Below, piece after piece: positions 2,119 through 27,200 of a stretch of DNA of 28,771 bases (the first letter of the stretch is position 1; each line of letters begins with the position of its first letter). Position numbers and translations under genes: made by a program. The stretch is from a virus: positions 1 to 28,771 of IMG/VR virus record IMGVR_UViG_3300025309_000042; one strand, 5' to 3'. The notes below the pieces were generated by a model. It searched no databases, was not told the DNA's origin, and saw only the letters and a program-made list of their open reading frames with translations.

Positions 2119-2736
2119 TCACCTGTAACTCGTTAAGCCACTCAGCAGCTGCGCGGCCGTTGGCGTCATCAGCCCCGTGAGCTCGGCGCCGTCGGCCGTC
2201 TTCACCTGGCCGCGGTTATCATAGGCCACGAGTACCATTTCGAGAATTGCCCGGCCGATGCGTTCGTCGACGTGCTGCTCATCGTCTCCCTCGCCAGCCT
2301 GAAACTCTACCCGGAATGGATACTCGAGATATGTTGAGGTCGAGAACTTCCGCGACGTGTCGATCCGGAAGCACCTGAGGCCCGTCAACCGATAACCGGA
2401 TGAGCTGACGGTATTCCAGTTGGTCCCGTCGAACGATTCCACACTCACGATCGACTGATGAGGCGGTCGGGGCAGGATCACGTAGTCGTGCATTCTCTCC
2501 CACTGGGCCATGATCGTCTGCGTGATGAACGCCCGGTTTGCGACACGCTCGGCTTCCTTCCTGCAGGCGATGATCAGCTTCTCGAGCTGCGCATCATCGT
2601 CCGTGCCGTCGATTCTGCAAAAGGTTTTCGCCTCCTCGAGCGTGACCGGTTCAACCAAGGGCTGCGTGATGACCTTCAGCTCGAGGCCCTCGGCTTCACG
2701 CTCAGTCTGGCGCCGTGTCTGATAGAGACTCTTCAT
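2119..2736 (-). CDS. Head-tail connector protein (HK97 gp6-like)
   Basis: This 205-residue protein is mostly helical. Key segments are EPVTLEEAKTFCRIDGTDDD, where the 'VTLxEAKxxLRID' motif is diagnostic of the gp6-like / phiE125 gp8 DNA-packaging connector family, then EKLIIACRKEAERVANR and a late helix ERIGRAILEMVLVAYDNRG. The first about 20 residues (MKSLYQTRRQTEREAEG) precede the family core. Members form a ring under the portal. The ATG overlaps the stop of the preceding 64-residue gene as ATGA. This is the first canonical virion gene after the inserted sugar cassette. Confidence 0.88.
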   Translation of the reverse strand: MKSLYQTRRQTEREAEGLELKVITQPLVEPVTLEEAKTFCRIDGTDDDAQLEKLIIACRKEAERVANRAFITQTIMAQWERMHDYVILPRPPHQSIVSVESFDGTNWNTVSSSGYRLTGLRCFRIDTSRKFSTSTYLEYPFRVEFQAGEGDDEQHVDERIGRAILEMVLVAYDNRGQVKTADGAELTGLMTPTAAQLLSGLTSYR

Positions 2737-2927
2737 TTTTGCCCCCTGCCTCCCGCGACCTTTGTGCGCCTTCCTTCTCCCGCTCCCGGCTTCGTCCGGG
2801 GCGCCAGTTCGGCTTTGCCGTCCCGGATGTGCAGACGCGCAACATTATCGTCGACCGTATAGAAGCCGCCGCGCAGGACCATGACGCCGTCGATGTAGAT
2901 ATCTTTTTTCGCTCTGAGCCTTGTCAT
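2733..2927 (-). CDS. Small 64-residue virion-region protein
   Basis: The start (ATG 2927) overlaps the stop of the GT29-like gene as ATGA. It begins MTRLRAKKDIYIDGVMVLRG, continues with HIRDGKAEL and ends in a basic Gly/Arg/Lys-rich tail. The layout, a basic strand, a 'G..V..GG' turn and a final 'IRDGKAEL', is like many short phage proteins located near head-tail connectors, but the function is not established. The first 42 residues resemble, over the same length and with a similar final motif, the C-terminal 40 residues of the neighbouring GT29-like protein. Confidence 0.6.
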   Translation of the reverse strand: MTRLRAKKDIYIDGVMVLRGGFYTVDDNVARLHIRDGKAELAPRTKPGAGEGRRTKVAGGRGQK

Positions 2928-3730
2928 ACCAGTACCGCCCTGCCTTTCCGGATGAGAATGTCTGCATCTCGTCTTGTCTTCAGCATTGTATCGCCCGGCA
3001 TAATTGTCTCGGCTCCATGCCGCTGCGCCATCGTTGCCCGGAGTTTGACGATGTCTAAGTGTTTTACCGCGTGGATCTCCAGCAACTGCTCGTTGATCTC
3101 CTTGGATCGGCCGACGATCTGCGCCATGGCGCCGTCCATCGAAAGCGGGACTGTAGTCGAAGCGAGCAATGCTTTCATATAGGCTTTCGATGTCACCTGA
3201 TCGTGGCCCGCTTGACCCCCGAGGATTCGGCCGGCGGTCTCGTTGTATCCTGGATAATACCCGTCCTCGTAAAACGAGAAGCCCGTCAGGTACAGCGACT
3301 TGATCGGCATCGAGAGCAGATGCGTCACGGCAATAACCCCCGCGTTCGGAGTTTTGCGGACCCGGAGCTTGACCTGCTGAATCAGCGAGAACGGGACACA
3401 CTCGAAGGGCACCCGCCCCCGGTTGATCCGTTTGAACTGAGGCACCCGGGGCTCACCCTCGTGGCGCGTGCTCACAATGAACCCCACTTTCCCGACACAG
3501 GGCTTGAATACCTGCTCGCTCGCTGCCATCCCGACCATAAGGAGATGATAGAGAATGTCCGTCCGCTCGCCGATGTCCTCAACCATGCCTGGCGGGACCG
3601 GGAAGCCGCGGTTGATCCGGGCAACCAGGTCGCAGCTCTCGATCCTTGCGCGCTGACGCGACCCCAACAGATATGCAGCTGGGGCGATGATCGCAACCGA
3701 CTTGCCTGTGACGAGTTCAGTAAAGGTCAT
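2924..3730 (-). CDS. GT29 (sialyltransferase)-like protein with C-terminal virion-type domain
   Basis: The product is 268 residues. Residues 12-40 (VAIIAPAAYLLGS ... SCDLVARIN) followed by DIGERTDILYH match the L-type sialylmotif layout of GT29: nucleotide-binding strand, 'S/G-S-x' turn, 'D-x-V-x-R-I-N', then 'G-x-R-T-D'. Residues 128-154 (TPNAGVIAVTHLL ... LYLTGFSFY) match the S-type motif, 'P-x-x-G ... lYGFsf'. GT29 enzymes move sialic acid from CMP-sialic acid to an acceptor glycan, and the CMP-sugar synthetase gene lies upstream in the same cassette. No signal peptide or membrane segment is evident. Residues about 228-268 look like a separate small domain similar to the next gene product. 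Activity and acceptor are inference. Confidence 0.72.
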   Translation of the reverse strand: MTFTELVTGKSVAIIAPAAYLLGSRQRARIESCDLVARINRGFPVPPGMVEDIGERTDILYHLLMVGMAASEQVFKPCVGKVGFIVSTRHEGEPRVPQFKRINRGRVPFECVPFSLIQQVKLRVRKTPNAGVIAVTHLLSMPIKSLYLTGFSFYEDGYYPGYNETAGRILGGQAGHDQVTSKAYMKALLASTTVPLSMDGAMAQIVGRSKEINEQLLEIHAVKHLDIVKLRATMAQRHGAETIMPGDTMLKTRRDADILIRKGRAVLV

Positions 3731-4464
3731 GCGTATTTCTTCCAGAGTCTATCCAGTTCTTGATAGCCTGCTTCCGGCGGTGACTGCCAAGGTTTACGTC
3801 CGACGAAGTGGATCATGCGCTTATTGTTGCCGACAGCACTCCATATTTGCGGATGATGCCGTTGCACTCGCTTGAGCATCTCGAATTCTATTCCGACGAG
3901 ATGGACCTCGTCCGGGTGATTGAGCGAGAAGTATTCATTCAAGACTTGCTGGTCGCCAAAAGAAATATCGGCCATCGAAGCAGCATGAGCTTGAAGCTTC
4001 TCGAAGAGATCGCTCGAAGATTCAAAGGCGAAGATGCCCGAAGAGAACATCGGGCGACCATTGATCGATGCCGGGAGCGAGATGCCGAAGACAACCGGAG
4101 CAGTGAGATGAGTCCATCGCTCTGCTTCTTTGAGCGATCCGATGCAGATCATGTCTGAATCGATATAGAGCCGGACGCCATCAGCCGGGAGATTGAAGAT
4201 CGCGAGCTTCTGCAATGCCAAGCGCCATGATTGCTTCTTGATCGATTGTCCGCTTCCGAGATGCACTTCACCGACGCTTGATCGATCGATGAAGACTGCA
4301 TCCGGCTTCAGTTTCAAGATCGATGATCGAGATGCTTCGGATATCATGCCATCGGTCATGATCAAGAACTCAAAAGCGTCGAGCTTCGCATTCGCCAATA
4401 ATGAAGCGAGCAGCGCACGAGAGCCGATGAGATAATCTTCCGTTGCGAAGGTGATCAACTTCAT
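3727..4464 (-). CDS. GT8-family-like glycosyltransferase
   Basis: Translation probably starts at ATG 4464, which overlaps the methyltransferase stop as ATGA, giving 245 residues. The N-terminal [19 protein letters not shown] is a Rossmann-type nucleotide-binding start. [11 protein letters not shown] (residues 99-109) holds the D-x-D metal and sugar-nucleotide motif. SSGIFAF and [10 protein letters not shown] follow, and [10 protein letters not shown] (217-226) is the C-terminal 'HFxGxxKPW' motif of GT8 glycogenin/LgtC-like enzymes. Such enzymes transfer a hexose from UDP-sugar with retention. The substrate is unknown. It could build the acceptor for the GT29-like enzyme encoded next. The DNA here is visibly less GC-rich and denser in GATC than its flanks. 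Confidence 0.85.
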
Positions 4465-5048
4465 TCTGCGCCTTTGATGAAGAACCAACTCGGCGTCGAT
4501 TTGTCTGTCGTGACGTTGATGACGACCTTCCGGCCTTTGATGAATTCATCGACGGCTTGCTTGACACCGTAGATCGTAGCCCGACGACCGCCGTTGAAAT
4601 AATCATGCCCGGAGAAGAGACCGCCGATCTTGAGCTTCGGCCACCAAGCCCGAAGATCAGCGAGCACGCCTTCGTATGAATGATTCGCGTCGATGTAGAT
4701 GAAATCGAGCGAGCCATCAGCGAAGCGAGCAGCAGCTTCCGGGCTTCGCTCTCGGATGATCTCCGATCGAGCACCGAATCGGGCAAGCAACTTCTGGCAT
4801 TCCATCATGACGTGATTCCAGTCATCGAGCGAGTATTCAGTCGAGCGCTTGACGGGCTTGTTTGTCATGAAGAGCGAATCGTCGTAGTCTGGAAGATCAG
4901 CCCATGCATCGATGCTGAAGAGCTTGCGGCCTTTCCATGTAGCAAGAAGGACCTCAGAGAAATAGCCGCCGAAAACACCAACCTCGACGCCATCGCCGAG
5001 GAGTGAATGAGCGTTCAGAAACTGTGGAATCTCATTGCGTGATTGCAT
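4461..5048 (-). CDS. Class I SAM-dependent methyltransferase
   Basis: The product is 195 residues. [15 protein letters not shown] (21-35) is the SAM-binding glycine loop. LFSIDAW (43-49) supplies the acidic residue after strand 2. [14 protein letters not shown] (115-128) is the 'DxxHxYE' motif of the Methyltransf_24 type, often found in sugar-modification clusters. GGLFSGHDY follows. The start overlaps the end of the CMP-sugar synthetase gene by 17 bases. In this setting it may O-methylate the nonulosonic acid or the GT8-added sugar, which is inference. Like the GT8 gene, its base composition differs from the neighbouring capsid genes. Confidence 0.85.
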
Positions 5049-5715
5049 AGTGCGGATCCGAGAGTATTGAGTTTGCCAGTTTCCAATCGGCCGGTTCGTC
5101 CAACTCGATCAGAGACTCAAAGCCCATTTCATAACCGACCACAACGCCGCTCAAGATGTCGCCCGTCATCCGGAAGGCCGAACTCCGGAAGATGTAGAAG
5201 GCCCCGTTCTCGACGAAGAGGCCCCTTACATTCGCCAGGCCGACCCGACGCAAGGTATCCCGGTTTTCCGGTTCGATCATGACATGGCCGAGCTTCGCAT
5301 AGAAATACCGTTTCATCAGAACACCCGAGACGACCGAGTCTGCTTTCTGCTCCTCCATCTGTGCGAGAGCCTTCTTCAGGTGGTAGGCCTTCGTGAAGGG
5401 GTTTGTTGCCTGGAGGAGCACGACGATATCGCAATCGACGTGCTGCAGGAACTCCCCGATCAAGGATTCCGTCCTCGCCGTGTCTGTCGCACTTTTCTCC
5501 GATCGAGGGAAGTATCGGAAGTGTTTCTCTTTCCCCTCGAGCGCTGTCTTCACCTCCGGGTCGTTCGTTGCGACATAGACCGTCTCAATCTCCATCGTCC
5601 CGAGTGCAGCGTTCAAGACTCGCAGTGCCGGCGAGAAGCCGCCGATCGGGGTGACGTGCTTGCCGGGGATTCGCTTGCTACCGGCACGCATGGGGATGAG
5701 GGCGACGATCTTCAT
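5032..5715 (-). CDS. neuA: CMP-sialic acid / CMP-nonulosonate synthetase
   Basis: The product is 227 residues, the usual length of bacterial NeuA catalytic domains. [10 protein letters not shown] (10-19) is the nucleotide-binding signature. VATNDPEV, then LLQATNPF (100-107), ENGAFYIF (169-176) and ELDEPADW (204-211) follow in the family order. The enzyme joins CTP and a nonulosonic acid to give the CMP-sugar used by sialyltransferases. Sequence alone does not separate N-acetylneuraminate from legionaminic or pseudaminic acid (NeuA, LegF or PseF). The start overlaps the stop of the preceding small Cys-rich gene as ATGA. Confidence 0.88.
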
Positions 5716-5903
5716 GACTTCTGCTTGTAGTCATCGCATTCGTGCGATGAGCCTGATTCCTTTTTGCCGATACTGATGATCTTCAAATTGCAGCACGCCA
5801 TTCCCGCCCATCCGAGATGATGGTCGCAGTCAGTCGCAAAGCATTTCAGCTTTACGATAGGCTCGATCTCGTATGTGATTGTCAAATTTTCTGGCGAAGG
5901 CAT
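5712..5903 (-). CDS. Small Cys-rich protein between neuB and neuA
   Basis: This 63-residue ORF starts at ATG 5903, two bases after the neuB stop context, with GGAGAGTGAT as ribosome binding site. The core KCFATDCDHHLGWAGMACC followed by NLKIISIG holds four or five Cys and two His, suggesting a small zinc-binding or disulfide-bonded module. It loosely resembles DUF1540-like Cys-rich peptides ('C...C....C...I.I'), but the match is not firm. Strict coupling to neuB and neuA suggests it belongs to the cassette. Its role is unknown. Confidence 0.6.
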   Translation of the reverse strand: MPSPENLTITYEIEPIVKLKCFATDCDHHLGWAGMACCNLKIISIGKKESGSSHECDDYKQKS

Positions 5904-5904
5904 A

Positions 5905-6711
5905 TCACTCTCCTTTGAACTTCTTTCGATTCTCGATCTCGCAGTCCACAAGTCCGGACTCAGGCTTGTACTCCATCGCCTCTGCTGCGTCGGCGAGGTA
6001 CTTGACCACTTTTCGCATTCCATCAGGCTCAAGACTTGCCGCGTGATCCGTTCCCTTCTGCGTCCGGTCCAGGGTGAAGTGCCGCTCGATATACTGTGCC
6101 CCGAGAGCAAAGGCAACCAGGTCGAGAGCGACGCCCTGGTGATGGCCTGAATAACCGATCGGGCAGTCCGTCATCGTCCGCAACTGCTGCAGCTCGAGTA
6201 GGCAAGCCTGATCTGATTTGATCGGATAGCCTGTCGTGGTGTGATAGAAGACTGTCTCACTTCCAAACAGCATCTCAAATTCAGTTACCACCATCGCCCG
6301 CTCGTGCCTGGCCAACATTCCGAGAGATACATGCAATGGCACATTGATCTTGCCACAGAGCGCTCTCCACATATCTTCCCGTTGATTGACCGCACTCCCG
6401 AACTTGATGTATGACGGGCTGAGTGATAGAATCTCATTCACACTCTTGACATCGAACACGCTGCAGCCGTAGTCGACCCCGAATGATGCACAGAGGTCCT
6501 GCAGCTCGGCGTGCTGCTCGATCGTGAACTCGAGCGCCTTCCGGTGTCCGTAGTATTCCGGATTGCCACGGTATTGCTCGATGTCACGCTTCTGGAATTT
6601 CACAGCATTGACCCCGCAGAAGTCCGCGGCGATTCGGATCATTCGCTTCGCCGTTTCCAGGTCTCCTTGATGATTACATCCTACTTCACATATCACATAG
6701 GGTTTCTTCAT
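5905..6711 (-). CDS. neuB: Sialic acid / nonulosonate synthase, core domain only
   Basis: Translation starts at ATG 6711, overlapping the nanE stop as ATGA, to give 268 residues. ICEVGCNHQGDLETAKRMI (7-25), GVNAVKFQK, then HTTTGYPI (157-164), GYSGHHQG (187-194) and IERHFTLDRTQKGTDHAAS (208-226) are the TIM-barrel motifs of NeuB: phosphoenolpyruvate and N-acetylmannosamine (or a related sugar) condense to the nonulosonic acid. Bacterial NeuB is usually about 340-350 residues because a C-terminal antifreeze-like SAF domain closes the neighbouring active site. That domain is absent here and is not encoded by the next gene. The dimer may work differently or need a host partner. Confidence 0.9.
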   Translation of the reverse strand: MKKPYVICEVGCNHQGDLETAKRMIRIAADFCGVNAVKFQKRDIEQYRGNPEYYGHRKALEFTIEQHAELQDLCASFGVDYGCSVFDVKSVNEILSLSPSYIKFGSAVNQREDMWRALCGKINVPLHVSLGMLARHERAMVVTEFEMLFGSETVFYHTTTGYPIKSDQACLLELQQLRTMTDCPIGYSGHHQGVALDLVAFALGAQYIERHFTLDRTQKGTDHAASLEPDGMRKVVKYLADAAEAMEYKPESGLVDCEIENRKKFKGE

Positions 6712-7355
6712 AGGATCATGTTTCCACACTCAACAACGAATTGCTTGATCACAACATCCGGACGAGTAACCGCGGTCCCAATGCAAATTGAGTGTGCGCC
6801 CAACCGTATCGCTTCCCGAAGATCGGATGCTGTCCTATAGCGCCCCTCTGCAATGACCGGGGATGACAGCGTCTCGGAGAGTTCTTTGAGCGCCTTGAAG
6901 TCCGGATCCTCTGAGAGGCGTCCCTGAGTTTGTTCTGTGTACCCGTAGAGCGTTGTCGCTATCGCAGCAACTCCGAGATCCTGCGCAACCTTCGAGGTCT
7001 CGATGGAATCCGCCTCGTAGATCAGCCTGGACCTGCCGTGGCCGTGATAGTCTCCGATCGCAGCGAGCGACTCGGTTGCCACGTAGTCGGCCCCGACAGA
7101 GAAGATCAGATCGCTCAGGCTTTTCTTTGGTGTGATGAGATGCCGGACCGCCTGGCTTCCGCCTTCCTTGATAATACCAATGACAGGTATCTCGATGCGG
7201 GTCTTTACGGCTTCGATGCGGCCGATACCTTCGATCTTGACCGCCACGGCGCCAGCATCCTCGGCCATGATTGCAAAATCGCAGACGCTGGGGATTGAGT
7301 CGAAGGCTGACCCGGGGGTTGGTTGAATCGAGATGATAATACCGCGCTTGAACAT
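6708..7355 (-). CDS. nanE: N-acylglucosamine-6-phosphate 2-epimerase
   Basis: The product is 215 residues, about the NanE length. The start is ATG 7355 behind AAGGAGGATGA. It has the TIM-barrel epimerase pattern: GIIISIQPTPGSAFD at the start, AEDAGAVAVKIEGI, EIPVIGIIKE, a later VGADYVATES, LGVAAIATTLYGYTEQT, SPVIAEGRY and GAHSICIGTAVTRP, all in NanE order. NanE interconverts GlcNAc-6-phosphate and ManNAc-6-phosphate, so it can supply the ManNAc precursor for sialic acid from host GlcNAc-6-phosphate. It is the first gene of the inserted cassette, about 85 bases after the major capsid stop. Confidence 0.88.
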   Translation of the reverse strand: MFKRGIIISIQPTPGSAFDSIPSVCDFAIMAEDAGAVAVKIEGIGRIEAVKTRIEIPVIGIIKEGGSQAVRHLITPKKSLSDLIFSVGADYVATESLAAIGDYHGHGRSRLIYEADSIETSKVAQDLGVAAIATTLYGYTEQTQGRLSEDPDFKALKELSETLSSPVIAEGRYRTASDLREAIRLGAHSICIGTAVTRPDVVIKQFVVECGNMIL

Positions 7356-7380
7356 TCATCCTCCTTGTCTTCTAAGGGGA

Positions 7381-7411
7381 TTGGGGGCGACCGCCTGTCA
7401 GCCGCCCCCAA
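7381..7411 (-). other. Strong stem-loop between capsid gene and sugar cassette
   Basis: A perfect 9-bp stem (TTGGGGGCG with CGCCCCCAA) closes a 13-base loop in the 84-base gap between the major capsid stop (7440) and the nanE start (7355). No run of U follows it, so it is not a standard intrinsic terminator. It could act as an RNA processing or 3'-end stabiliser that keeps capsid mRNA more abundant than the cassette mRNA, or as a leaky terminator. This is inference. Confidence 0.5.
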
Positions 7412-7439
7412 CGAATGACCTATCCGTTCCCCTTACAAA

Positions 7440-8882
7440 TTAGCTTGACGCCTGCAGCCCGCCGTAGACAAATGCCAGCGGCCGGAAAATCGGAAGCATG
7501 ATGCGCTCTTCTGCGCGAATCGCGACCATGTTCTGGATGAAGAACTTGTCGTGTGATTCCGAGACTGCGACGTTCGCCTCTTCCCGATCATACAGCGTCG
7601 CACCCAGACCGTAGGCACCACAGAGGGCGTTGCCCTGGAGCATGGACTCAGACTGCACAACGGGCAGCCCCCAGATGCGGCTTCCAAGCACTGCGTTGGG
7701 GTCGCCGATCAGATAGCGCAGATTGCCATCTTTCTCAAGCTCGACCTCCATCCAGTCCATTCCGTTGACCACAAACCCCGTCGCCGGGAACCGGGCCTGC
7801 ATTACCTGGCCGATCATCCGGCGCAGTCCATCGATACGGGTCTCGCCGGCAACTGGCGTAAAGACACCGGCAAGGAGCGTGATACCCTCGAGGTTCGGAG
7901 CAACACCCGAGCCGTAGAGGATCTGAAGCTCTTCCTCGAGCAACACCGAATACAGCAGCTGTGTGTCGATGAAGTTCCGGAGCAGTGGTGCGTCGGCAAG
8001 GATCTGCTTCGACGCCGGCAGCCAGGTCGCAATCGTCGAGGCAACAGCCTGTGCCTCTTCGAACTTCAGATCCGCCTTCGGCTTCTCGCTTCCCTCCGAG
8101 ACAACACCGGCGTTTCCGGTCAACTGTCCGGATGATCCCGAATCGGAGCCGAAGAACGTCGACCGGACATACTGGAGGAGAGGCGTCGAGATCGGCGTCA
8201 CTCCGAGCAGATCACGGATACGAAGCTGTTGGTTCGGAACGGGCTGGATGATACCGGGCACACGGAACGGAACAACAAGATCGCCGGCGCTTCCAGTTGT
8301 GCCGAGTACGTCTTTCCGGCCGAACGACTTCAGCGGAAAGCTGAGGCGCACTCCGGTCGGAACGTTCTTACCTTGCAGAGCAACGATCGACTCGTGTTTG
8401 GCGATAATACTTCCCGCCGTCTCAACAGGTCCAACACCCATAAGCTGACCCGCTTTGATCTTGATCTCGAGCTCGTCGACTCGTTTTGCGAATTCCTTCT
8501 TCTGGGCTTCGCGTGCTTCGTCTGCGAGTTTGCCGAAGTCCTTCAGGCGGTCTTCGATTTCCCTTTTCAGATCGGCAGTCGTGATACCTTTTTTCTGTGC
8601 CTCTTCGATTTCAGTCAGCTTGACAGAGATATCCGACCATGCCTTCTTCTGCTTTTCCAGCAGTGTCTTGATCTCTGTTTCGTCAATGACCTCGAACGCA
8701 AACGGCACAGGGACCCTCCGCACCCAGGTCTTGATGAGAGACCAGACGAAATGGAACTTCGAGGTGAGTGTGGTGTGAATCCAGAACAGCTTCATCGTCT
8801 TCGGAAGCTGGTACTCGTGGAACGCTGCGCCCGCCATTGGAACGAAGGCGAGCAGCATGATGAGCAGCAAGATGTACTTCAT
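7440..8882 (-). CDS. Major capsid protein (HK97 fold), with odd N-terminus
   Basis: The 480-residue frame ends in an HK97-type coat protein: a coiled-coil delta/scaffold segment (about residues 66-150), then SAGDLVVPFRVPGII, LLQYVRST, ASTIATWLPASKQILADAP, NFIDTQLLYSVLLEEELQIL, GFVVNGMDWMEVE and WGLPVVQSESM, the usual order of the family. Two starts are possible. ATG 8882 overlaps the protease stop (ATGA) and has AAGGGG upstream. GTG 8708 has CGGAGGGTCCCT directly before it and would give 422 residues, closer to a normal precursor. The first about 58 residues (MKYILLLIMLLAFVPMAGA) look like a signal peptide, which is unusual for a coat protein. The prohead protease should remove the delta domain. 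Confidence 0.9.
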   Translation of the reverse strand: MKYILLLIMLLAFVPMAGAAFHEYQLPKTMKLFWIHTTLTSKFHFVWSLIKTWVRRVPVPFAFEVIDETEIKTLLEKQKKAWSDISVKLTEIEEAQKKGITTADLKREIEDRLKDFGKLADEAREAQKKEFAKRVDELEIKIKAGQLMGVGPVETAGSIIAKHESIVALQGKNVPTGVRLSFPLKSFGRKDVLGTTGSAGDLVVPFRVPGIIQPVPNQQLRIRDLLGVTPISTPLLQYVRSTFFGSDSGSSGQLTGNAGVVSEGSEKPKADLKFEEAQAVASTIATWLPASKQILADAPLLRNFIDTQLLYSVLLEEELQILYGSGVAPNLEGITLLAGVFTPVAGETRIDGLRRMIGQVMQARFPATGFVVNGMDWMEVELEKDGNLRYLIGDPNAVLGSRIWGLPVVQSESMLQGNALCGAYGLGATLYDREEANVAVSESHDKFFIQNMVAIRAEERIMLPIFRPLAFVYGGLQASS

Positions 8883-9679
8883 GACGATACCCCTTTCTGT
8901 TTGGTGAATGACTCCATATCGCTTAGTTGCTTGCGAAGCGCTGAAGCGATCTCTGACCGCGTGGCCTTCGATGCGGCGGCGAGTGCAATTGCTTGCGAGT
9001 CGTCCGCATTCAGGCTCTGAACGAAATCCTTCATGCTCTGTTGAAATTGTCTGATCCAGATCTCCATCTGCATCGCCGTGTCATCCGTTACCGCGTCGGT
9101 GAGCGCCCTGTTGATGCTGTCGATCTGATCAAATGCTTTTGTCCAATCCTGCACAGACTTGAATCCGAGGAACGGCGTCTGATCGTTCGCTCCCCAGGTG
9201 ACGGCCGAACCGTCCCAGAGTCTGAGCTCGAGCAACCTGGTCGGTTTGTCTTGTGTGCGCTCCTGCTTGACCACATCATAGCCGATACTGTGCTCGTTGA
9301 TCACCTGATCCTGATAGAGGATCATGGTGTCTTTGCCGTAGCTCGTCTGGCTGATCGTCGATTCGAAATACAGCCCGAACTTGTCTTCCTTCAGCACTGA
9401 GGGGCGGCCGAGGAGAAGATCCGGCCGATGCTGGCGAAGAAACGCAACGCGCTTGGAACCGCCGGGCCCCCGCTCCCTGATCGTGCGCCGGAATGCCCCG
9501 GGCACCACGATCTCATTGTCGGAGTCGACGTTGTCGAAGGCCGAGAAGTAGCCGGTGATGATCCCGTTCTTTGTGTCGACGTCTTTGACCATGGACTTCA
9601 ATTCGCAATGCTGATGCGTCGCCATGCCCTTTCGCCGGTAGAGATCGCCCAGTTGCTCGAAACGAGATTGATTCTTCAT
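8879..9679 (-). CDS. Prohead maturation protease (HK97 family)
   Basis: The product is 266 residues. GYFSAFDNVDSDNEIVVPGA (43-62) is the typical 'GxAxxfxxxDsdgdxixPGAF' start of the U35 serine protease. H84 in FLRQHRPDLLLG and S131 in INEHSIGYDV are the likely catalytic His and Ser, and ELRLWDGSAVTWGAN supplies the third region. Residues after about 180 form a helical tail. The enzyme trims the scaffold domain of the coat protein inside the prohead and is then removed. It lies between the Mu F-like gene and the coat gene, the standard order, and its stop overlaps the coat ATG. Confidence 0.92.
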   Translation of the reverse strand: MKNQSRFEQLGDLYRRKGMATHQHCELKSMVKDVDTKNGIITGYFSAFDNVDSDNEIVVPGAFRRTIRERGPGGSKRVAFLRQHRPDLLLGRPSVLKEDKFGLYFESTISQTSYGKDTMILYQDQVINEHSIGYDVVKQERTQDKPTRLLELRLWDGSAVTWGANDQTPFLGFKSVQDWTKAFDQIDSINRALTDAVTDDTAMQMEIWIRQFQQSMKDFVQSLNADDSQAIALAAASKATRSEIASALRKQLSDMESFTKQKGVSS

Positions 9680-9682
9680 TGC

Positions 9683-10498
9683 TCAACCCTTCCTCAAATA
9701 ACCGATCGTACAACGACAATTGATGATGTTCCCTGCGCTCCCTGTCGGATCCCCGGGGAACTGAAGCTGCTCGACTCCGGAGGGGCGCATCGGCACGTCA
9801 AACACTCCGTCCAGCTCCGCTCCCTTCGAGTCCATGTGAAAGTGGTCGAACTCGTCTGTCGGCTTGAGGCCCCGTGTCGCATTGTCCCGGGTCGAGATCC
9901 ACTGCTTCTTCACGTTCGCACCCGAGGTCTTCGCCCCCATGAGCGATCCCCAGTTGGAGGCCGTGACAGTCTCGGTGTGAGCGATCACCATTGCCCGACC
10001 CATGGAGATCTGATCAAGCATCACGTTCGTCCTGATCGCATTCGCAATCTCTATCAGGCTCTTGCCCTGGTTCTCATCGATGACCGTCATGATGCGCCGT
10101 TTCGTGACGTCGTTGATTCCGACGATCTTGCTCTCTGTCTCCGGCGATGTCAGATATTCATTCACGAGCCTGTGCCACTGTGACTCCTGTGCCGGCGTTG
10201 CCTTGATCGATGCGAGGACCTTGCTGGCGAAGACCGGAGCGATCATCATATACAGCCGGTGATAGACCGCGGTGATGACCGGCTTTGATTTGTCGATTGC
10301 TTCTCCGACCGCCTGAGATGCAACATCCGGAGCAACAGCTTTCTCGATCGCATCGGCAGCAAGCTTCGCCTGCGTCCGGAGAGCTTTGCCGATCTTCACC
10401 TTCGCCCAGTAGATGTAGCGCTGGCGCTCGGCCTGTGTGCCGAGCCAGAGCATCCGCTTCTGTTCCTCAGATCTGTTTTCGATCGGCGTCCAGATCAA
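9683..10498 (-). CDS. Head morphogenesis protein (Mu gpF / SPP1 gp7 type)
   Basis: The product is 271 residues. RAMVIAHTETVTASNWGSL matches the 'RxxxIAxTExxxaxN' helix of the family. KKQWISTRDNATRG, the FDHFHM segment and LQFPGDPTGSAG ending in NCRC give the C-terminal 'W...D..TR..H ... ypgDP.gsa.n.iNCRC' signature. Members are minor head proteins bound near the portal, and some are ejected with DNA. The ATG overlaps the portal stop as ATGA. The N-terminal 130 residues are helical and more variable, as usual. Confidence 0.9.
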   Translation of the reverse strand: MIWTPIENRSEEQKRMLWLGTQAERQRYIYWAKVKIGKALRTQAKLAADAIEKAVAPDVASQAVGEAIDKSKPVITAVYHRLYMMIAPVFASKVLASIKATPAQESQWHRLVNEYLTSPETESKIVGINDVTKRRIMTVIDENQGKSLIEIANAIRTNVMLDQISMGRAMVIAHTETVTASNWGSLMGAKTSGANVKKQWISTRDNATRGLKPTDEFDHFHMDSKGAELDGVFDVPMRPSGVEQLQFPGDPTGSAGNIINCRCTIGYLRKG

Positions 10499-11901: not shown

Positions 11902-13533
11902 TTACAGTCGACCGACAAAGATATCTTTTGCCGTTGCCATCCATCCGCGCCGGACAAGATTCCAATACATCACGGCGTCACCCTTGTTCGGGGACCGGCC
12001 GAGCCGCTTCTTAATTGCTTCCTTCGCCTCGATGCAGATTTTACCCGAACGGGTTTCCCACGTCGGCGTGCAGAGGTCGTTAAAAAGTTCCTTGTCGTAC
12101 GGCAGCACGAGGTGAGAGTCGGGCCGTTCGAGATCACGAGCGAGGATCCACCACCCCTGAGAGCGGAGGCAGTTGAAGATCTCGTGCATCTTCTGCTCGG
12201 TGTCGGGAAGTTCGATCTGTCCGCCTCCGGACTGGATGTTGACGATCTCTTCGCCAAGCTCATACATCTTGTTCACCGTCGAAGCCCCTACCCCCACGCC
12301 ATCGATGCCGACATAGCCGGCGTCGATCTTCTTCAGCTGCATCCGGGAGTAGACTTGGCTGGTTGCCAGGAGGTCCGCACGCGGGCAGGGGAAGGCGTCA
12401 ACCACTTCCAAACAACTACCCACTCCTTCGGCGATAGCAGCGTCATCACCGGCTTCTGAGTTTGCCACGTCAACGCCGAGGGCGCGCTCGCCTTTCAACG
12501 CCTGATCCGGATGACGCCGTGATGCTCGTTCGCACCACTCCCACTTGATCAGCGAGTGCGCGCCTTGCGCCGGCGAGATGCCTTTGGCCCGGGAGAGATA
12601 CAGCGGATGATTCTCGTTCTTGTTGTAGCCGTCGAGCAGCGTCTTCAAACCGATCTCCGTCTGCGCGCCGGGGATGAAATTGGGATCCTTGAGCACGACA
12701 TTCGGATGATCGAAGCCGGAGATCCGGATCGACTTCACCCGGTCCATCCTGCAGAATTCATGGAGCGTGTCGCCTTGATGATCGGGATTGCCGAAGGCAA
12801 CGATGATATTGTGGGGTGCGCTCATTCGGTCTTTGATTGCGGTCATGACAGCTTCGGCGACGCCAGGTGTCTCTTCGAAGATGATGAGGAGGTGTTCGCC
12901 GTGGATGCCCTGAGCTTTCGTCGCGCTGGTTTGAATCTCTGACGCTTTGACGCCGGCGGTGAACTGTGAAGCCTCCCACACTTCCGGCCGTGGATCGAGC
13001 CGGAGTTCCTTCGACATCATCTCGCCCTTGCCGAAGGCCGGGAATTTCAGATTGAGCTCGCGCCAGATCCCTTTCGCAAGCTGGTCTTCTTTCGGCGCGA
13101 TCGTGATGACCCTCGACTGAAAGAAATTCTCAAGGAACCAGAAGATCAGAGCTGCACCGACGAACGTCTTGCCGACACCGACCGCCGACTCAACGCCGAC
13201 CCAGTGTGACTCGGCGACGTATTCGAGGATCTTCGCCAGGGGATCGACATCGCCGTCCCATTTGTGTGTTGCATACTGCGGGAGGGTGCTCCACTGAATG
13301 GTCTCGCGTCTGATCCTCAAACGATCGACAATGTAATCGATCGGGTGCGTCTGGTAGTAGGTGACTCGTTCACGTTCGGCCGCTTCACGCATCTGGCGAT
13401 CGAGGTGAGCTGTTTCATTCTCGATCCGTCTCCGCAATTCAAGCTCGGCCGCCGCGCGTACGCGCAGGGTGTCACTTATCTGAATTCTGCTGGAGGACAA
13501 TACCCGGGTCCTCGCCTGCTCGTATCCGTTCAA
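11902..13533 (-). CDS. terL: Terminase large subunit
   Basis: About 543 residues if TTG 13533, preceded by AAAGGAACAAC, is used. TTG 13563 is also in frame, and the gene overlaps the end of the small subunit gene either way. ESAVGVGKT (about 115-123) is the Walker A site and HLLIIFEETPGV (about 214-225) the Walker B with catalytic Glu. The C-terminal nuclease domain shows ALGVDVANSEAGDD, GIDGVGVGAS and a last GDAVMYWN, giving the three metal-binding Asp residues. The enzyme cuts and pumps DNA into the prohead through the portal. Confidence 0.92.
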   Translation of the reverse strand: MNGYEQARTRVLSSSRIQISDTLRVRAAAELELRRRIENETAHLDRQMREAAERERVTYYQTHPIDYIVDRLRIRRETIQWSTLPQYATHKWDGDVDPLAKILEYVAESHWVGVESAVGVGKTFVGAALIFWFLENFFQSRVITIAPKEDQLAKGIWRELNLKFPAFGKGEMMSKELRLDPRPEVWEASQFTAGVKASEIQTSATKAQGIHGEHLLIIFEETPGVAEAVMTAIKDRMSAPHNIIVAFGNPDHQGDTLHEFCRMDRVKSIRISGFDHPNVVLKDPNFIPGAQTEIGLKTLLDGYNKNENHPLYLSRAKGISPAQGAHSLIKWEWCERASRRHPDQALKGERALGVDVANSEAGDDAAIAEGVGSCLEVVDAFPCPRADLLATSQVYSRMQLKKIDAGYVGIDGVGVGASTVNKMYELGEEIVNIQSGGGQIELPDTEQKMHEIFNCLRSQGWWILARDLERPDSHLVLPYDKELFNDLCTPTWETRSGKICIEAKEAIKKRLGRSPNKGDAVMYWNLVRRGWMATAKDIFVGRL

Positions 13534-15951: not shown

Positions 15952-16914
15952 CTACTCCGCTTCGATAAATTCGCCTTTTGCGTTGAGCCTGTACCACACA
16001 TCGGCTTTCAAGCTATCCGGTCCGGCGCCGGTCAGCGCGCATCGCATCTCATATCGCTGATATTTTGCGTTCCACCATGCGAGAGCAACACACCCATACT
16101 CACCCGCCTTCGCGCGACCGTTATCTCCGGTGACGATTGCCGCGGACGCTTTGCCCGTCGCTGAACTGGCGGAACTGTAGCCCGTCGCTGAACTGGCGGA
16201 ACTGTTGCCCGTCGCTGAACTGGCGGACCTGTAGCCCGTCGCTGAACTGGCGGACCTGTCGCCCGTCGCTGAACTGGCGGACCTGTAGCCCGTCGCTGAA
16301 CTGGCGGACCTGTCGCCCGTCGCTGAACTGGCGGAACTGTAGCCCGTCGCTGAACTGGCGGAACTGTCGCCCGTCGCTGAACTGGCGGAACTGTCGCCCG
16401 TCGCTGAACTGGCGGAACTGTTGCCCGTCGCTGAACTGGCGGACCTGTAGCCCGTCGCTGAACTGGCGGACCTGTAGCCCGTCGCTGAACTGGCGGACCT
16501 GTCGCCCGTCGCATGTTTTTCTCCAGCCCACTGCTCGACCCATTTGATTTGGCCCGAGAGAATGAACTTCATCGCTTCGTCCCATTTTCCGAGGAAGCGC
16601 AGCGTGCCGGTTTTGAATTTGCACTTCTGGCCGCCTTCGATCTCCCCAACGACCTCTTCCGGTTTTGCTCCGTACACTTGCCAGAGCGACTCCCACTCAC
16701 ACTCCTTGCCTTCACCCAATCCAATACCCCACGGCCAGCCGTGGATGCCACCACCGCAAACCGCAGCCTCATTCCATTTCGGCTCGACGACCGATTCTCC
16801 CACAGTCATGGGATGTTGAAAGCCATTATATGACTTGCCGTTTTTGTCCGAGAACCGGAGGATCAACACCTCCCCATTCTCATTGGTCCATTGGTGCGCA
16901 GGTATTTTTTTCAT
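15952..16914 (-). CDS. Repeat protein with 13 SASSATG units (DUF7666-like N-terminus)
   Basis: Starting from ATG 16914 behind GGGAGCGAAGTA, the product has 320 residues. Residues 1-134 form a domain (MKKIPAHQWTNENGEVLIL, later GGGIHGWPWGIGLG and WVEQWAGEKH) seen at the front of similar phage repeat proteins. Then come 13 copies of a 9-residue unit, ATG-x-x-SASS, followed by degenerate units (ATGKASAA, VTGDNGRAKAGEYG) and an approximately 50-residue C-terminal cap with WWNAKYQRYEM. Such Ser/Thr/Ala/Gly repeats probably make a regular beta-helix or solenoid. No function is established. The gene lies among small early genes and not in the virion module. Confidence 0.8.
   Translation of the reverse strand: MKKIPAHQWTNENGEVLILRFSDKNGKSYNGFQHPMTVGESVVEPKWNEAAVCGGGIHGWPWGIGLGEGKECEWESLWQVYGAKPEEVVGEIEGGQKCKFKTGTLRFLGKWDEAMKFILSGQIKWVEQWAGEKHATGDRSASSATGYRSASSATGYRSASSATGNSSASSATGDSSASSATGDSSASSATGYSSASSATGDRSASSATGYRSASSATGDRSASSATGYRSASSATGNSSASSATGYSSASSATGKASAAIVTGDNGRAKAGEYGCVALAWWNAKYQRYEMRCALTGAGPDSLKADVWYRLNAKGEFIEAE
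16162..16512 (-). repeat. Thirteen tandem 27-bp units
   Basis: The units are in frame and nearly identical. Within each, only two codon positions vary: the first base of one codon (TAC, GAC or AAC, giving Y, D or N) and the third base of the next (AGG or AGT, giving R or S). The order along the gene is DR YR YR NS DS DS YS DR YR DR YR NS YS. The identity of all other positions points to recent expansion or ongoing recombination between units. Confidence 0.95.
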
Positions 16915-19217: not shown

Positions 19218-19246
19218 GGGTTGGCTCCTGACTCGTTGATCAGTTG

Positions 19247-19327
19247 CAGCGCCGGCTGGACTCGAACCAGCAAGTTCCGGCGAGACGTGCACTCTCCCGG
19301 CGATTGTGCCATTTCATCCACGGCGCC
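19247..19327 (-). tRNA. tRNA-like gene with long anticodon arm, possible anticodon GCA
   Basis: The 81-base sequence fits between the ParB-like stop and the next gene. The acceptor is GGCGCCG with CGGCGCT (7 bp, one G-U). Then come TG, a D arm with GATG and AATC (three pairs plus G-A) and the loop AAATGGCAC. The T arm is perfect: GCTGG TTCGAGT CCAGC. The variable loop is a normal five bases (AACTT). The anticodon arm is abnormal: CCGG and GAGA pair with TCTC and CCGG, one G bulged, so eight pairs instead of five. The 7-base loop GTGCACG has U33 and would read GCA (Cys). The discriminator is G, not the U73 typical of tRNA-Cys. CCA is not encoded. Confidence 0.6.
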
Positions 19328-22221: not shown

Positions 22222-24636
22222 TTAGTACACGAATTCCAGTCTACCCTCAGCCGGCACAAGGTGAACGCGTTGCTGTATCTGCCCCCAGATCTCCGGCGTC
22301 TGCGTGATGACGAACGTATAGTGCCGGCGTCCGAGCTTGAACGACTCCCGGAGCATATCGAGGAAGTGCTGCTTGTTGTCCGGATCAAGGGCGCCGTCGG
22401 ATTCGTCGGCGTAGCTCGTGAGGTACTCCTTCCCGGACTTCTCACTCAGGTAGATTGCGATCGCTTCCTGGATGGCCTTCTCAATCCATACTCTCTCCCC
22501 ACCACTCAGATCCTCGATCCGTTTCTCGCCGTCGGCGCCGTAGACCCGGATCTCGAATGTCTCCAGCTGTTTCTTGTTGTCCTTCGACATCTTCGTCGTC
22601 TCGAATGAGATCTGGAAGCGGGTGCCGAACGTCGAGGCCAGGAGCTCGTTGGCGATGCGTGAGACGGCAGGACCGGCCGCATCGAGCTCCAATGCCGGGA
22701 TCCCGTCCTTAGAGCAGGCCCGCTGCAGGAGCCGCCAGTTTTCGAGCTGCGAGAGAATCTTCTGCAGGTCGGCCGTGATCGATCGGGCTTCCGCCTCTGC
22801 CTCATCCAGCTGCTTCAGCATCTCCTGGCGGAACTGAATATCGCCGACGATGCCCGAGCGCTTGTCCGTGAGAGCCTTCAGCTCAGCCTGGGCGATGACG
22901 ATTGCATTCCTGAGCACCTGGAGCTGTTCGTAGAACTCAGGCGCGAGGAGTGTTGCCTTGATCTCTTCCCACTTCGCACGCTTCTCCGTGGCCTCGAGGC
23001 CGAGATTGAACGCATCGATGTGGTGCTTGTTGCCGGTCTCTATCACCCGGGCGGCGATCTCAGCGATAGCCTTCTGCTTCTCCTCGATCGTTGCCTCAGC
23101 AACCCGGAGCTCCTCGAGCAGGCTCTCCCACTTCTTCGCCTCGAGGGTCTGGATCTCTTTGCAGACGGTGAGGTGTCTGGCGGGGTCAAAGCCGACAGAA
23201 GCAATGCGCCCGGCGAACTGATCGTCAACGTGGTTTGTGGGTTCGACTAGCTCCGCTGCCCGAGTTCGACTCGTCTCATACTGAGCTGCCAGAGCACCGA
23301 GTCCATTACTCCATCGATAATCATGGTCCCCCAATTCGCCCATTCTGAGCTCAATACTTCTAATCAGATTCTTCGCGTTGATTGCCGTAGATAACAACTT
23401 GCAGCGGTCTGGCAGTCCCGGAACCGTGTTGCAAGGGACCTCCGAGACGAGAGCGGCCGTGCGTTGTGCCTCCATCAGCTCGCGCCTGCAAACGAGGAGA
23501 TCGCTCTCGAATCGCTCAATCAGGTTTTTCTTTTCCCGCTCGAGTCCCGACTGCTCGTTGGCAATCGCAACGCAGGCCAACTTGTAATCGGAGAGGGCGG
23601 TTTGATATTTCTCCCGGCCCTTCTCCTGCTCCCGCTCGATCGCTAGGACCTGCTCGCGGCGCTCGTTGATATCCTTGAGTTCCAGTCGAAGAGTCTGCAA
23701 CCGGATGACGCTCTGCTCGATCTCGTGCTTATGATCGACGATCTGCTGCTTCCGCTTGATCTCCTCCTCGATAGCCTTCTTCGACAGCCCGAGTTTCTCC
23801 AGCTGCTCTTTGTGGTCCTTGTCGAGCTTCCACTTCTTGGCTTCGAGTACGCTCACCTCGTTCCCCAGGTCATGCACCATGGTGTGCTTCGCCTTGTCCT
23901 CCGCAACCCGGGATTCACGGTTGGCGATCTCCTCACTCCTGAGCTTGACCTGGGTCTCCCCGATCTTTATGTCCGCCTCAACGACTGCGAGTTCCTTCCG
24001 GCAGTTCTCCAGCTCAGAGACGACAACCGCCTCCCGTGAGGTCTGCGCGGCGATCTGCTCGAGCCTTCCACGTCGGCCGGCGATATCCTTTTCCACTTCA
24101 TCTGCCTGGACCTTGCAGTGCTCGGCATAGAGATCATACCGCTGCAGCCCCAGCAGCTCGAGGAAGAGCTCCTTTCTCTTCCCGGCCGTGAGGGAGGTAA
24201 TGCTCTCGGCGTTCTGACAGGAGAAGATACTGCGGAAGAAGAGCTCCGGAGAGCCCAGCAGCTTCTCGATTTCGGCTTTGTAGGTGTTGACCTTGCCGTC
24301 CGACAGCGGCGTGCCATCACGATAGAGATAGGCTTCGGTCTTCGCTGTCTTCGCATCGATGAGGATGTAGGATCGATAGACGTGTCCGGCGAGCTCGAAC
24401 GTGAAGTCCCGGTAGGAATCCCGGAGCCGGAAGTGATTGGAGAGCGAACCCTCACGGCTCGCCAGCTGCAGGTACGGGTGGAGGTTCTCGAGGATCGTCG
24501 TCTTCCCCGAGCCGTTTGGGCCGACGAGCGCGATGAGTCCGGATTGGAATCCCCCGAAGTCGATCGAGACATCGTCCAGTCCGAGGCCGTCGTGAATCCC
24601 GACGGCCCCACGTAGTTTCAGACTGAGTGGCTTCAT
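22222..24636 (-). CDS. sbcC: SbcC/Rad50-like ATPase subunit of nuclease
   Basis: The product has 804 residues. GPNGSGKT (39-46) is Walker A. SIFSCQNAESI (about 136-146) is the Q-loop. Long coiled coils follow. LSGGERVWIEKAI (710-722) is the ABC signature and YLTSYADESDGALD (about 738-751) Walker B with catalytic Glu. The hook region shows VPCNTVPGLPDRCKLL, two Cys ten apart, not the usual C-x2-C zinc hook, and the H-loop region reads FVITQTPEI with Gln where His is usual. With SbcD it cleaves hairpins and DNA ends. The ATG overlaps the 98-residue gene stop as ATGA. Confidence 0.92.
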   Translation of the reverse strand: MKPLSLKLRGAVGIHDGLGLDDVSIDFGGFQSGLIALVGPNGSGKTTILENLHPYLQLASREGSLSNHFRLRDSYRDFTFELAGHVYRSYILIDAKTAKTEAYLYRDGTPLSDGKVNTYKAEIEKLLGSPELFFRSIFSCQNAESITSLTAGKRKELFLELLGLQRYDLYAEHCKVQADEVEKDIAGRRGRLEQIAAQTSREAVVVSELENCRKELAVVEADIKIGETQVKLRSEEIANRESRVAEDKAKHTMVHDLGNEVSVLEAKKWKLDKDHKEQLEKLGLSKKAIEEEIKRKQQIVDHKHEIEQSVIRLQTLRLELKDINERREQVLAIEREQEKGREKYQTALSDYKLACVAIANEQSGLEREKKNLIERFESDLLVCRRELMEAQRTAALVSEVPCNTVPGLPDRCKLLSTAINAKNLIRSIELRMGELGDHDYRWSNGLGALAAQYETSRTRAAELVEPTNHVDDQFAGRIASVGFDPARHLTVCKEIQTLEAKKWESLLEELRVAEATIEEKQKAIAEIAARVIETGNKHHIDAFNLGLEATEKRAKWEEIKATLLAPEFYEQLQVLRNAIVIAQAELKALTDKRSGIVGDIQFRQEMLKQLDEAEAEARSITADLQKILSQLENWRLLQRACSKDGIPALELDAAGPAVSRIANELLASTFGTRFQISFETTKMSKDNKKQLETFEIRVYGADGEKRIEDLSGGERVWIEKAIQEAIAIYLSEKSGKEYLTSYADESDGALDPDNKQHFLDMLRESFKLGRRHYTFVITQTPEIWGQIQQRVHLVPAEGRLEFVY

Positions 24637-24929
24637 GCCTTCGGCCCTCCGAGGACAAACCCGGCCGCCTCAGCTTCCTTCATCGAGAGCGAGCCCTTCG
24701 TCTCCCCTTCTTTTTTCGTGCGGATGTAGCCGAGCGCCTTGTACTCAACGAATGTGCCGCTCGGGATGATGACCTGGTAGACAACGCCGTCAGCGGGATC
24801 CTGAAACATCTCTCCCAAAGGCAAATCCCGCATGGCGTTGTAGAGGTCCTGATTGGCCTGCTTGATCTGGCGTGCGAGGTCCTCGAGCTTCTTGGCCTGG
24901 GCGACGAATTTTGTTTGCAACTCGTTCAT
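24633..24929 (-). CDS. Small protein between sbcD and sbcC (98 residues)
   Basis: The ATG overlaps the sbcD stop and the TGA overlaps the sbcC ATG. The N-terminal 35 residues are helical (MNELQTKFVAQAKKLEDLAR), followed by DLPLGEMFQDPADGVVYQVI, a beta-rich part and a short C-terminal helix (SLSMKEAEAAGFVLGG). I do not recognise the family. The strict coupling suggests the three products are made together and may act as one complex or that this protein modulates SbcCD. No database name can be supported. Confidence 0.65.
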   Translation of the reverse strand: MNELQTKFVAQAKKLEDLARQIKQANQDLYNAMRDLPLGEMFQDPADGVVYQVIIPSGTFVEYKALGYIRTKKEGETKGSLSMKEAEAAGFVLGGPKA

Positions 24930-26104
24930 AACGTGACGCTCCTTTCGACATCGCCGGCGAGCGTGAGCACGTCGGGCTTGATTTCCTGGTTAGTGACCGC
25001 TCCCCACTCGACAACCTTCTCGGTGAGCGTCTTGGCTTTAGTGATCTCGGCGGACCGGGTGCGCTCGGTCGGGGTTGTGATGCGCTCGATCTGGTAGGAG
25101 AAGGCGCCGGGGAAGAATCCCTCAACTTGATCGTCGGTCAAGGTGAGTTGCCGTTCCTTTGTTCCATGCACGCGAATGCGAACCGCTGCGTCGGCAATCT
25201 CGGCGAGATCAACCCTGCGTTCAAGCAGTTCAAGGGCGGGACCGTCGGCTATAGCCGTCTCTATGAGCGCCAGCGCCCTCGACGGAATCTGAATCTTCGT
25301 CGTCACACAGGCTTCCCGGTTCACTTCATGAAGGAGAACGAACCTTGGCGTCACCTCTCCCCAGTTGTTGTGGAAGGTGGATCCGGAGTACCAACCGTGT
25401 GGCATGAACTCCTGGCACTCGTGGATGTGTCCCCAGCATTGCACGTCCGCGCGAGCGAGCGCGAGGTCATGCTTGGAGAGCATAATGTCCTGAGAGACAA
25501 GCTCCTGACCGCTGCAGAGTTTCGAGCCTGAGATGTTGCCGTGCCCAACGAGGATTACGGGACACTTGGAGTCCATCGAGATCGCCCCGAAGCCGGTGAA
25601 GATCTGCTTGATAGCTGTCTGGATGAGGAGGTTCGATTCGTCGATCGATGCGTTCGGCTTGTCCCGGAGGAACCAGGCTTTCTCCGGGTAGCTGAAGAGG
25701 TGGAGAACGAGGTTGCAGTCTGTCGCGTCCCCGGCGATACTATCGAACCAGCGGTGACCATCGACATTAAAGAATCCGACCGTCTCACAGCCCTCGGTGA
25801 CATAGACCGGGTGCTTCGTGTCCAGGGCGGTGAAGACCTCCAGACATCCCCGCGCATCGTGACTCTCGTTGCCCTTGATGATAACGACCGGAGCAACGTC
25901 AGCGAGCCGCATGATGAACGACTTCGCCAGGGAGATTGCGCTCTTGTCATTCAGTGACTGCAGCCGGTTGAACGTGTCGCCGGCGTTGACGATCAGGTCG
26001 GGCTTGAGTTCCGTGGCCTGATCGACGATGAAGTTGGCCGACGCCCGGCACTTGTCGATCTTGTCCTTCTCAAAGTGGGCATCGCCAAAATGTAGGACTC
26101 GCAT
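24926..26104 (-). CDS. sbcD: SbcD/Mre11-like nuclease subunit
   Basis: The product has 392 residues. The metallophosphoesterase motifs appear in order: HFGDAHFEKDKID (D8, H10), NAGDTFN (D43), GNESHD (78-83; an insertion relative to the canonical GNHD), VGHGN (about 187-190) and WGHIHE (225-228). The C-terminal 130 residues form the capping and SbcC-binding region. The enzyme is a 3'-5' exonuclease and endonuclease that opens hairpins and processes ends together with SbcC. It starts where the upstream gene stops (TGATG). The phage may use it for replication intermediates or to counter host defence. Confidence 0.92.
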   Translation of the reverse strand: MRVLHFGDAHFEKDKIDKCRASANFIVDQATELKPDLIVNAGDTFNRLQSLNDKSAISLAKSFIMRLADVAPVVIIKGNESHDARGCLEVFTALDTKHPVYVTEGCETVGFFNVDGHRWFDSIAGDATDCNLVLHLFSYPEKAWFLRDKPNASIDESNLLIQTAIKQIFTGFGAISMDSKCPVILVGHGNISGSKLCSGQELVSQDIMLSKHDLALARADVQCWGHIHECQEFMPHGWYSGSTFHNNWGEVTPRFVLLHEVNREACVTTKIQIPSRALALIETAIADGPALELLERRVDLAEIADAAVRIRVHGTKERQLTLTDDQVEGFFPGAFSYQIERITTPTERTRSAEITKAKTLTEKVVEWGAVTNQEIKPDVLTLAGDVERSVTL

Positions 26105-27150: not shown

Positions 27151-27170
27151 GATTTTATCTCCTCCTAGAG

Positions 27171-27200
27171 ATTATTTGATCCTGATGAAGCGCGTGTTAA
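27171..27200 (-). promoter_or_regulatory. Candidate promoter for the sbcDC operon
   Basis: TTAACA (27200-27195) and AATAAT (27176-27171) lie 18 bases apart on the minus strand, one mismatch from consensus in each box. The predicted start falls about 10-14 bases before the ribosome binding site of the 348-residue gene. The -35 box overlaps the end of the HNH gene. This would give the recombination genes their own transcription start. Confidence 0.4.

Follow-up and report, generated by a model that had tools for sequence, protein, structure and literature searches.

Why should a bacteriophage carry genes for making and transferring a sialic acid-like sugar among its head genes, and on what would it place that sugar? 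The question is raised by IMG/VR virus record IMGVR_UViG_3300025309_000042, analysed here as a stretch of 28,771 bases (hereafter the window, to which coordinates refer unless another sequence is named). An earlier note on this DNA had described seven consecutive genes, running in one direction, mostly joined by ATGA overlaps and placed between the major capsid gene and the head-tail connector gene, as a complete nonulosonic acid (NulO) cassette. This arrangement is indeed seen, on the minus strand, from position 7355 down to 2924. We favour, with slightly more confidence than doubt, the view that the cassette is a phage-encoded module for late, cytosolic glycosylation of virion proteins.

A conserved cassette among the head genes

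The cassette follows the gene of an HK97-fold major capsid protein (7440..8882; PF05065, E-value 2.4e-38; phrog_10, 3e-57) after a spacer of 84 bases, and all genes of this region lie on the minus strand. It opens with a NanE-like N-acylhexosamine-6-phosphate 2-epimerase of 215 amino acids (6708..7355; PF04131, 2e-30) and a NeuB-like synthase of a nonulosonic acid or perhaps of its 9-phosphate, made of the TIM barrel only (5905..6711, 268 amino acids; PF03102, 5e-50). A small Cys-rich protein of 63 amino acids (5712..5903; DUF1540 at a sub-threshold E-value of 0.09) separates these from a NeuA-like CMP (cytidine monophosphate)-nonulosonate cytidylyltransferase of 227 amino acids (5032..5715; PF02348, 5e-20). 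Then come a Methyltransf_24 protein, possibly a glycan O-methyltransferase (4461..5048, 195 amino acids; PF13578, 8e-19), a GT8 glycosyltransferase with a D-S-D motif (3727..4464, 245 amino acids; PF01501, 9e-9) and a GT29-type sialyltransferase of 268 amino acids (2924..3730), assigned from its relatives, its profile and its predicted fold. A small conserved protein of 64 amino acids without family (2733..2927) leads to the downstream border, a gp6-like head-tail connector (2119..2736; PF05135, 2.8e-9; phrog_442, 6.5e-20).

Five of the seven cassette proteins (NanE, NeuB, NeuA, Methyltransf_24 and GT8) score above the Pfam cut-off; GT29 alone falls below it, and the Cys-rich protein is without a family. 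The PHROGs matched around the cassette are terminase, portal, head morphogenesis, protease, connector, head closure, tail completion, tail terminator and tail tube. The enzyme identities and the coherence of the cassette within a late virion operon, as proposed in the earlier note, are supported. ATGA overlaps join NanE to NeuB, the Cys-rich gene to NeuA, the methyltransferase gene to GT8, GT8 to GT29 and GT29 to the gene of the 64-residue protein; NeuA and the methyltransferase gene overlap by 17 bases, and NeuB is separated from the Cys-rich gene by 1 base. Overlaps of ATGA or longer thus form the majority of the joints and suggest coupled translation. Within the cassette, the counts of sigma-70 promoters and T-tailed terminators were not above chance.

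The earlier note had pointed out that its reading would fail if the cassette had arisen through the joining of bacterial to phage contigs during assembly. Such a join, or a chance association, is excluded because identical cassette segments occur in three other IMG/VR contigs (3300009285_000827, 3300025011_000086 and 3300002727_000095) and because two relatives, the close L003 and the more distant L005, keep the cassette order between the same structural genes, capsid and connector. Amino-acid identities to L003 are 92-97% for NanE, NeuB, NeuA and GT29 and 78-83% for the methyltransferase and GT8; to L005 they are 60-73% for NanE, NeuB and GT29 and about 45-50% for NeuA, the methyltransferase and GT8. 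The ratio of nonsynonymous to synonymous substitution rates (dN/dS) relative to L003 is 0.05-0.18 in the cassette and 0.04-0.17 in the structural genes, and all six cassette enzymes are under purifying selection. It is therefore very improbable that the genes form a functionless passenger island from a bacterium: the GC content at third codon positions is slightly lower in GT8 and the methyltransferase gene than in the head genes, but the intact frames, the low dN/dS ratios and the order kept at 45-73% amino-acid identity largely refute this idea. The Cys-rich gene is accessory, since L003 has a replacement for it and L005 lacks it, and we rejected it as a part of the pathway.

The transferase at the end of the cassette belongs to a family best known from animals. 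Taken alone, the window protein matches the Pfam GT29 family with 15.7 bits against a cut-off of 23 (E-value 0.01); two phage relatives pass this cut-off with 32.1 and 50.6 bits. A profile and an AlphaFold2 model were built from 24 sequences. Against the PDB, the profile retrieved only sialyltransferases at meaningful E-values, the best being ST3Gal1 (2.7e-18). The model (pLDDT 84, pTM 0.75) has 39 fold matches in the PDB at E-values of at most 0.001, every one of them a GT29/GT42-type sialyltransferase, with TM-scores normalised by query length of 0.42-0.54. Sialylmotifs L (IESCDLVARIN...EDIGERTD) and S (PNAG...LTGFSFY) are present, and the catalytic histidine, H176, is conserved in 23 of the 24 sequences. 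The glutamate of motif VS, five residues further, is replaced by S181; some relatives, L187 among them, retain the glutamate. The profile matches and the predicted fold rule out an unrelated fold and confirm the cassette GT29 as a true sialyltransferase-fold enzyme; the identification made in the earlier note withstood this fold test. Homologues adjoin NeuA or NeuB in phages L099, L101, L202 and L207-L210 and in Verrucomicrobia L161, and no relative of the window GT29 was found among 50,697 phage records searched.

From NanE to the activated sugar

Late in infection, NanE would convert host GlcNAc-6-P (N-acetylglucosamine 6-phosphate) into ManNAc-6-P (N-acetylmannosamine 6-phosphate), and NeuB would condense the latter with phosphoenolpyruvate (PEP) into NulO-9-phosphate. 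A host phosphatase of the HAD family, encoded by the phage itself in some other phages, would remove the 9-phosphate, and NeuA would yield CMP-NulO. GT8 would then add a hexose to a protein, GT29 would cap this hexose with the NulO, and the glycan may also receive methyl groups from the methyltransferase.

The three enzymes of synthesis have clear relatives among solved structures. NanE scores 105.9 bits against a PF04131 cut-off of 27 and matches the solved NanE structures 3igs (9e-26) and 4utt (8e-24); its K63 and E170 align with their catalytic Lys and Glu and are invariant across phages. NeuB, which starts at ATG 6711 or, with 274 amino acids, at GTG 6729, scores 170.6 bits against 22.1 for PF03102 and matches 6ncs (6e-27). 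Its E9, K38, K103, S106, H190, E209 and H211 align with E25, K53, K129, S132, H215, E234 and H236 of SiaC, the NeuB of Neisseria meningitidis, so that the metal-binding histidine pair (H190, H211) is kept. NeuA scores 72.6 bits against 22.6 for PF02348; it aligns over 217 residues with PpNeuA (9t4z, 6e-23), including ELD...DW, and over nearly its whole length with the mouse CMP-Neu5Ac synthetase (1qwj, 1e-18; Neu5Ac, N-acetylneuraminic acid). It carries no fused HAD domain.

Textbook bacterial Neu5Ac synthesis starts with NeuC, which yields free ManNAc, and NanE acts on ManNAc-6-P. Since NanE would yield ManNAc-6-P, the product with this type of NeuB should be a NulO-9-phosphate. The gene neighbourhood of bacterial relatives argues for such a product. 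In 80 bacterial loci carrying the nearest NeuBs, neighbours within 3 kb included NeuA in 68, an HAD phosphatase in 62 and a NeuA-HAD fusion in 56, from which we infer that a phosphatase accompanies NeuBs of this group, in keeping with a 9-phosphate synthase. NanE stood beside NeuB in none of these 80 loci, and no full-length NanE was found in 23 whole genomes of these bacteria; in our data the NanE-NeuB pairing for this group occurs only in phages. The cassette would thus follow a phosphorylated route through GlcNAc-6-P, ManNAc-6-P, NulO-9-P, NulO and CMP-NulO. Humans and Bacteroides thetaiotaomicron likewise use 6-phosphorylated sugars and a 9-phosphatase, and many bacteria do not (PMC6200933).

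Several features of these enzymes weigh against the proposed route. The cassette had been called complete in the earlier note; this stands for NanE, NeuB, NeuA and the sialyltransferase and fails for the 9-phosphatase, as the window phage yielded no HAD phosphatase. Dephosphorylation would need a host or promiscuous enzyme, and a host enzyme may serve because sugar phosphatases are redundant (PMC6200933). The substrates of NanE and NeuB may also differ from those supposed. In the phage NanE, the DxTxRxRP loop of the solved enzymes is shortened to ATESLAAI, and the NCBIfam curated score of PRK01130 is not reached (148.7 against 189 bits). NeuB is without the SAF (antifreeze) domain, has V108 at the position of E134 of SiaC and, with 157.7 bits, remains below the 399.65 bits of the canonical N-acetylneuraminate synthase family TIGR03569. 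As E134 is likewise replaced in the 80 bacterial NeuBs nearest to it, most of which have frames of about 300 amino acids, the phage enzyme is, judging from these relatives, a member of a distinct group and not a product of decay. The missing SAF domain and E134 equivalent leave several candidate products: NeuB could make Neu5Ac, another NulO or KDN (ketodeoxynononic acid).

The same features feed the alternative that the sugar is not sialic acid-like at all, NeuB making KDN-9-P or another ulosonate and NanE feeding a different hexose. We regard this alternative, compatible with any view of the acceptor, as rather unlikely. NanE is unnecessary for KDN, since KDN synthesis starts from Man-6-P (mannose 6-phosphate), and the transferase has the sialyltransferase fold. 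The altered NanE loop, the SAF-less NeuB and the replaced E134 speak for it, as does the B. thetaiotaomicron route, which makes KDN (PMC6200933).

Recurrence in unrelated phages and the likely acceptor

The earlier note had suggested searching for the same gene order next to capsid genes elsewhere. Besides L003 and L005, which have it, a separately assembled version was found in a second, unrelated lineage. Scanning viral contigs for NanE gave 16 loci; NeuB adjoins NanE in 13 of the 15 non-duplicate ones, and the other two end at a contig edge. The second lineage (L027, L029-L032, L107-L112 and L117) has a capsid of family PF25209, unrelated to that of the window. In contigs long enough, its genes are ordered capsid, adaptor, minor head protein, MptE-like/GT4 protein, NeuA, in some an HAD phosphatase, NeuB, in some a methyltransferase, NanE, HAD phosphatase, methyltransferase or sulfotransferases, and head-tail connector; this cassette thus lies downstream of the capsid gene amid minor head and connector genes. 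The phosphatase between NeuA and NeuB is KdsC-like in L030 and L117, and its presence is a further argument for the phosphorylated route. A third arrangement is found in L045, where NeuB-NanE-NeuA are followed by terminase, SPP1 portal and capsid.

In a tree of NeuB sequences, a weak grouping joins the window lineage to L045 within the bacterial group linked to NeuA-HAD, apart from lineage 2. Since a single clade for all NanE-linked phage NeuBs, a group named before the tree was seen, was rejected by the approximately unbiased test (p-AU 0.0019), the NanE-NeuB linkage has, as far as this tree indicates, arisen or been reassembled at least twice. We tentatively entertain, with some reserve, the broader idea that several unrelated phage lineages independently added a NanE-NeuB-NeuA shunt from GlcNAc-6-P to CMP-nonulosonate to their virion operons and cover their particles with a sialic acid-like sugar of phage make, and that the extra C-terminal domain of the window GT29 may dock on the virion.

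The earlier note had left the acceptor between capsid, tail and host surface. The likeliest would be a capsid, neck or tail protein made in the cytosol from the same operon. Virion proteins are favoured because no lipid-carrier, flippase or polymerase gene lies within the cassette and because the genes are placed among virion genes in unrelated phages. Two considerations count against this choice as well. The position in the operon suggests late timing rather than a target, so that the acceptor, whether capsid, tail or host surface, is something we infer. Moreover, a host-surface acceptor is also possible because enzymes of the Cst-II type work from the cytosol when they sialylate lipooligosaccharide.

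GT29 might accordingly place the NulO on host lipopolysaccharide (LPS) or capsule late in infection, blocking superinfection or the sticking of progeny to debris, which we consider a serious, though less likely, rival. The GT29 model also aligns with Cst-II of Campylobacter jejuni, which uses lipooligosaccharide acceptors, many phages carry surface-glycan genes, and several GT29 relatives sit within long glycan clusters. Against such a role, besides the missing membrane carrier, flippase and polymerase genes, stand the placement among head genes that two unrelated lineages share and the MptE-like (a weak match) and GT4 proteins of lineage 2, which are not typical LPS enzymes.

Lysogenic conversion, in which the prophage would alter a host surface sugar as epaA/epaB prophages do with pseudaminic acid, depends on the life cycle. 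G003, one of the three assemblies with identical segments, has 41,839 bases and starts and ends within a repeat array at 16142-16512, and the window spans that junction; because G003 breaks in the array and the window bridges the break, the phage map is circular, of about 41.8 kb. G003 encodes a tyrosine integrase (G003 26277-27431; PF00589, 1.6e-25), and the window phage is thus probably temperate. Prophage-encoded NulO conversion has been proven in Acinetobacter baumannii (PMC12053666). In the window phage, however, the genes belong to a late head operon, of a kind that lysogens normally keep silent, and no promoter of the cassette's own is above chance, so that we judge this explanation improbable.

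Glycosylation of virion proteins by the phage's own enzymes, the reading we prefer, resembles several known systems in part. Phosphorylated sialic acid routes (human NANS; KDN-9-P in B. thetaiotaomicron, PMC6200933) share the PEP condensation of a hexose- or hexosamine-6-phosphate followed by CMP activation, whereas the phage adds its own NanE, has a SAF-less NeuB and, in the window lineage, no phosphatase. The NeuC-NeuB-NeuA sialylation of capsule or LPS in N. meningitidis and C. jejuni shares the NeuB and NeuA steps and a sialyltransferase; the phage, in contrast, has NanE for NeuC, with no leftover NeuC candidate and no polysaccharide export genes. Glycosylated capsids or virions are known in mycobacteriophages such as Che8, where phage glycosyltransferases act, or have been proposed to act, on virion proteins; the passages of PMC11256854 on these phages mention only glycosyltransferases, close to the genome's 3' end, and no de novo CMP-NulO synthesis, unlike the window cassette between capsid and connector. 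The epaA/epaB prophage genes also act on nonulosonic acids, but they modify the capsule NulO made by the host (PMC12053666), whereas the window cassette should produce its own NulO and transfer it. Maf flagellin glycosyltransferases, as the relevant passages of PMC7591256 describe them, carry out cytosolic protein O-glycosylation with NulO, and lineage-2 domains are weakly MptE-like; the window phage has GT29 and GT8 instead.

Full-text literature searches retrieved no description of such a phage cassette. If a phage makes CMP-NulO and transfers it with its own sialyltransferase, virion glycosylation would be a self-sufficient phage trait, which would account for the presence of such genes among the head genes of unrelated phages. 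The locus supplies a defined, testable set of genes, a group of NeuBs that lack SAF and have NanE as an unexpected partner, and prokaryotic GT29 enzymes of compact size.

Other features of the locus and its relatives

A structured RNA is predicted in the spacer between the capsid gene and NanE (7356..7439, minus strand), directly before the ribosome-binding site of NanE. It forms a three-way junction with a minimum free energy of -40.8 kcal/mol (z -4.6). Counterparts of similar architecture are found at L003:5173-5257 (z -3.2) and L005:7297-7381 (z -4.1), the latter with a different sequence; the window RNA matched no Rfam family. It could shield the end of the capsid mRNA or lower cassette expression.

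The GT29 of the window lineage has an extra C-terminal beta domain of six strands (residues ~226-268), absent from the other phage GT29s aligned. By eye it resembles the neighbouring 64-residue protein, which occupies the same place in L003 and L005; profile scores being suggestive only, we do not claim that one is a copy of the other.

NeuB relatives occur in at least 282 viral stretches, nonulosonate synthases being common in uncultivated phages, and most of 80 loci fetched are without NanE. Among the 50,697 phage records, no NeuB exceeded 32% identity to that of the window. NanE matches in a cultured-phage collection were set aside as resembling pieces of bacterial chromosome (short unannotated contigs, a Salmonella assembly), judged from the match rows only. 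As to the host, the portal and capsid matches in phages share only 22-37% identity, and when about 800 genomes from two phyla were searched with the portal, all matches were distant.

In lineage 2, the proteins of 550-610 amino acids adjoining NeuA (L110:5701-7398, L111:6059-7894, L117:6401-8059 and L029:7260-9086) combine a weakly MptE-like (Maf-related) N-terminal part with a GT4 domain. Paired sulfotransferase-like genes (L112:11149-12426, L029:12835-14669) suggest sulfated glycans.

The relatives also carry insertions. In L003, a DNA-methyltransferase-like gene (9415-10053) is inserted between GT8 and GT29. Open reading frames akin to that at window 27197-27703, which looks homing-endonuclease-like by eye and has no Pfam match, lie in L003 between NanE and NeuB (5886-6383) and between two tail-completion genes (12508-13014). 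The MuF-like head protein has an intein-like insert of about 275 amino acids in L003 (1289-2929; NIIN/C...VISN/C) and L005 (3583-5226), and the window copy (9683-10498) is without it.

Elsewhere in the window, the repeat array is a tandem of 27-base units encoding TGxxSASSA repeats. A predicted tRNA-Cys gene (19246-19327, minus strand) adjoins the end of a ParB-like open reading frame, and an SbcC/SbcD-like pair of ATPase and metallophosphoesterase is encoded at 22222-24636 and 24926-26104.

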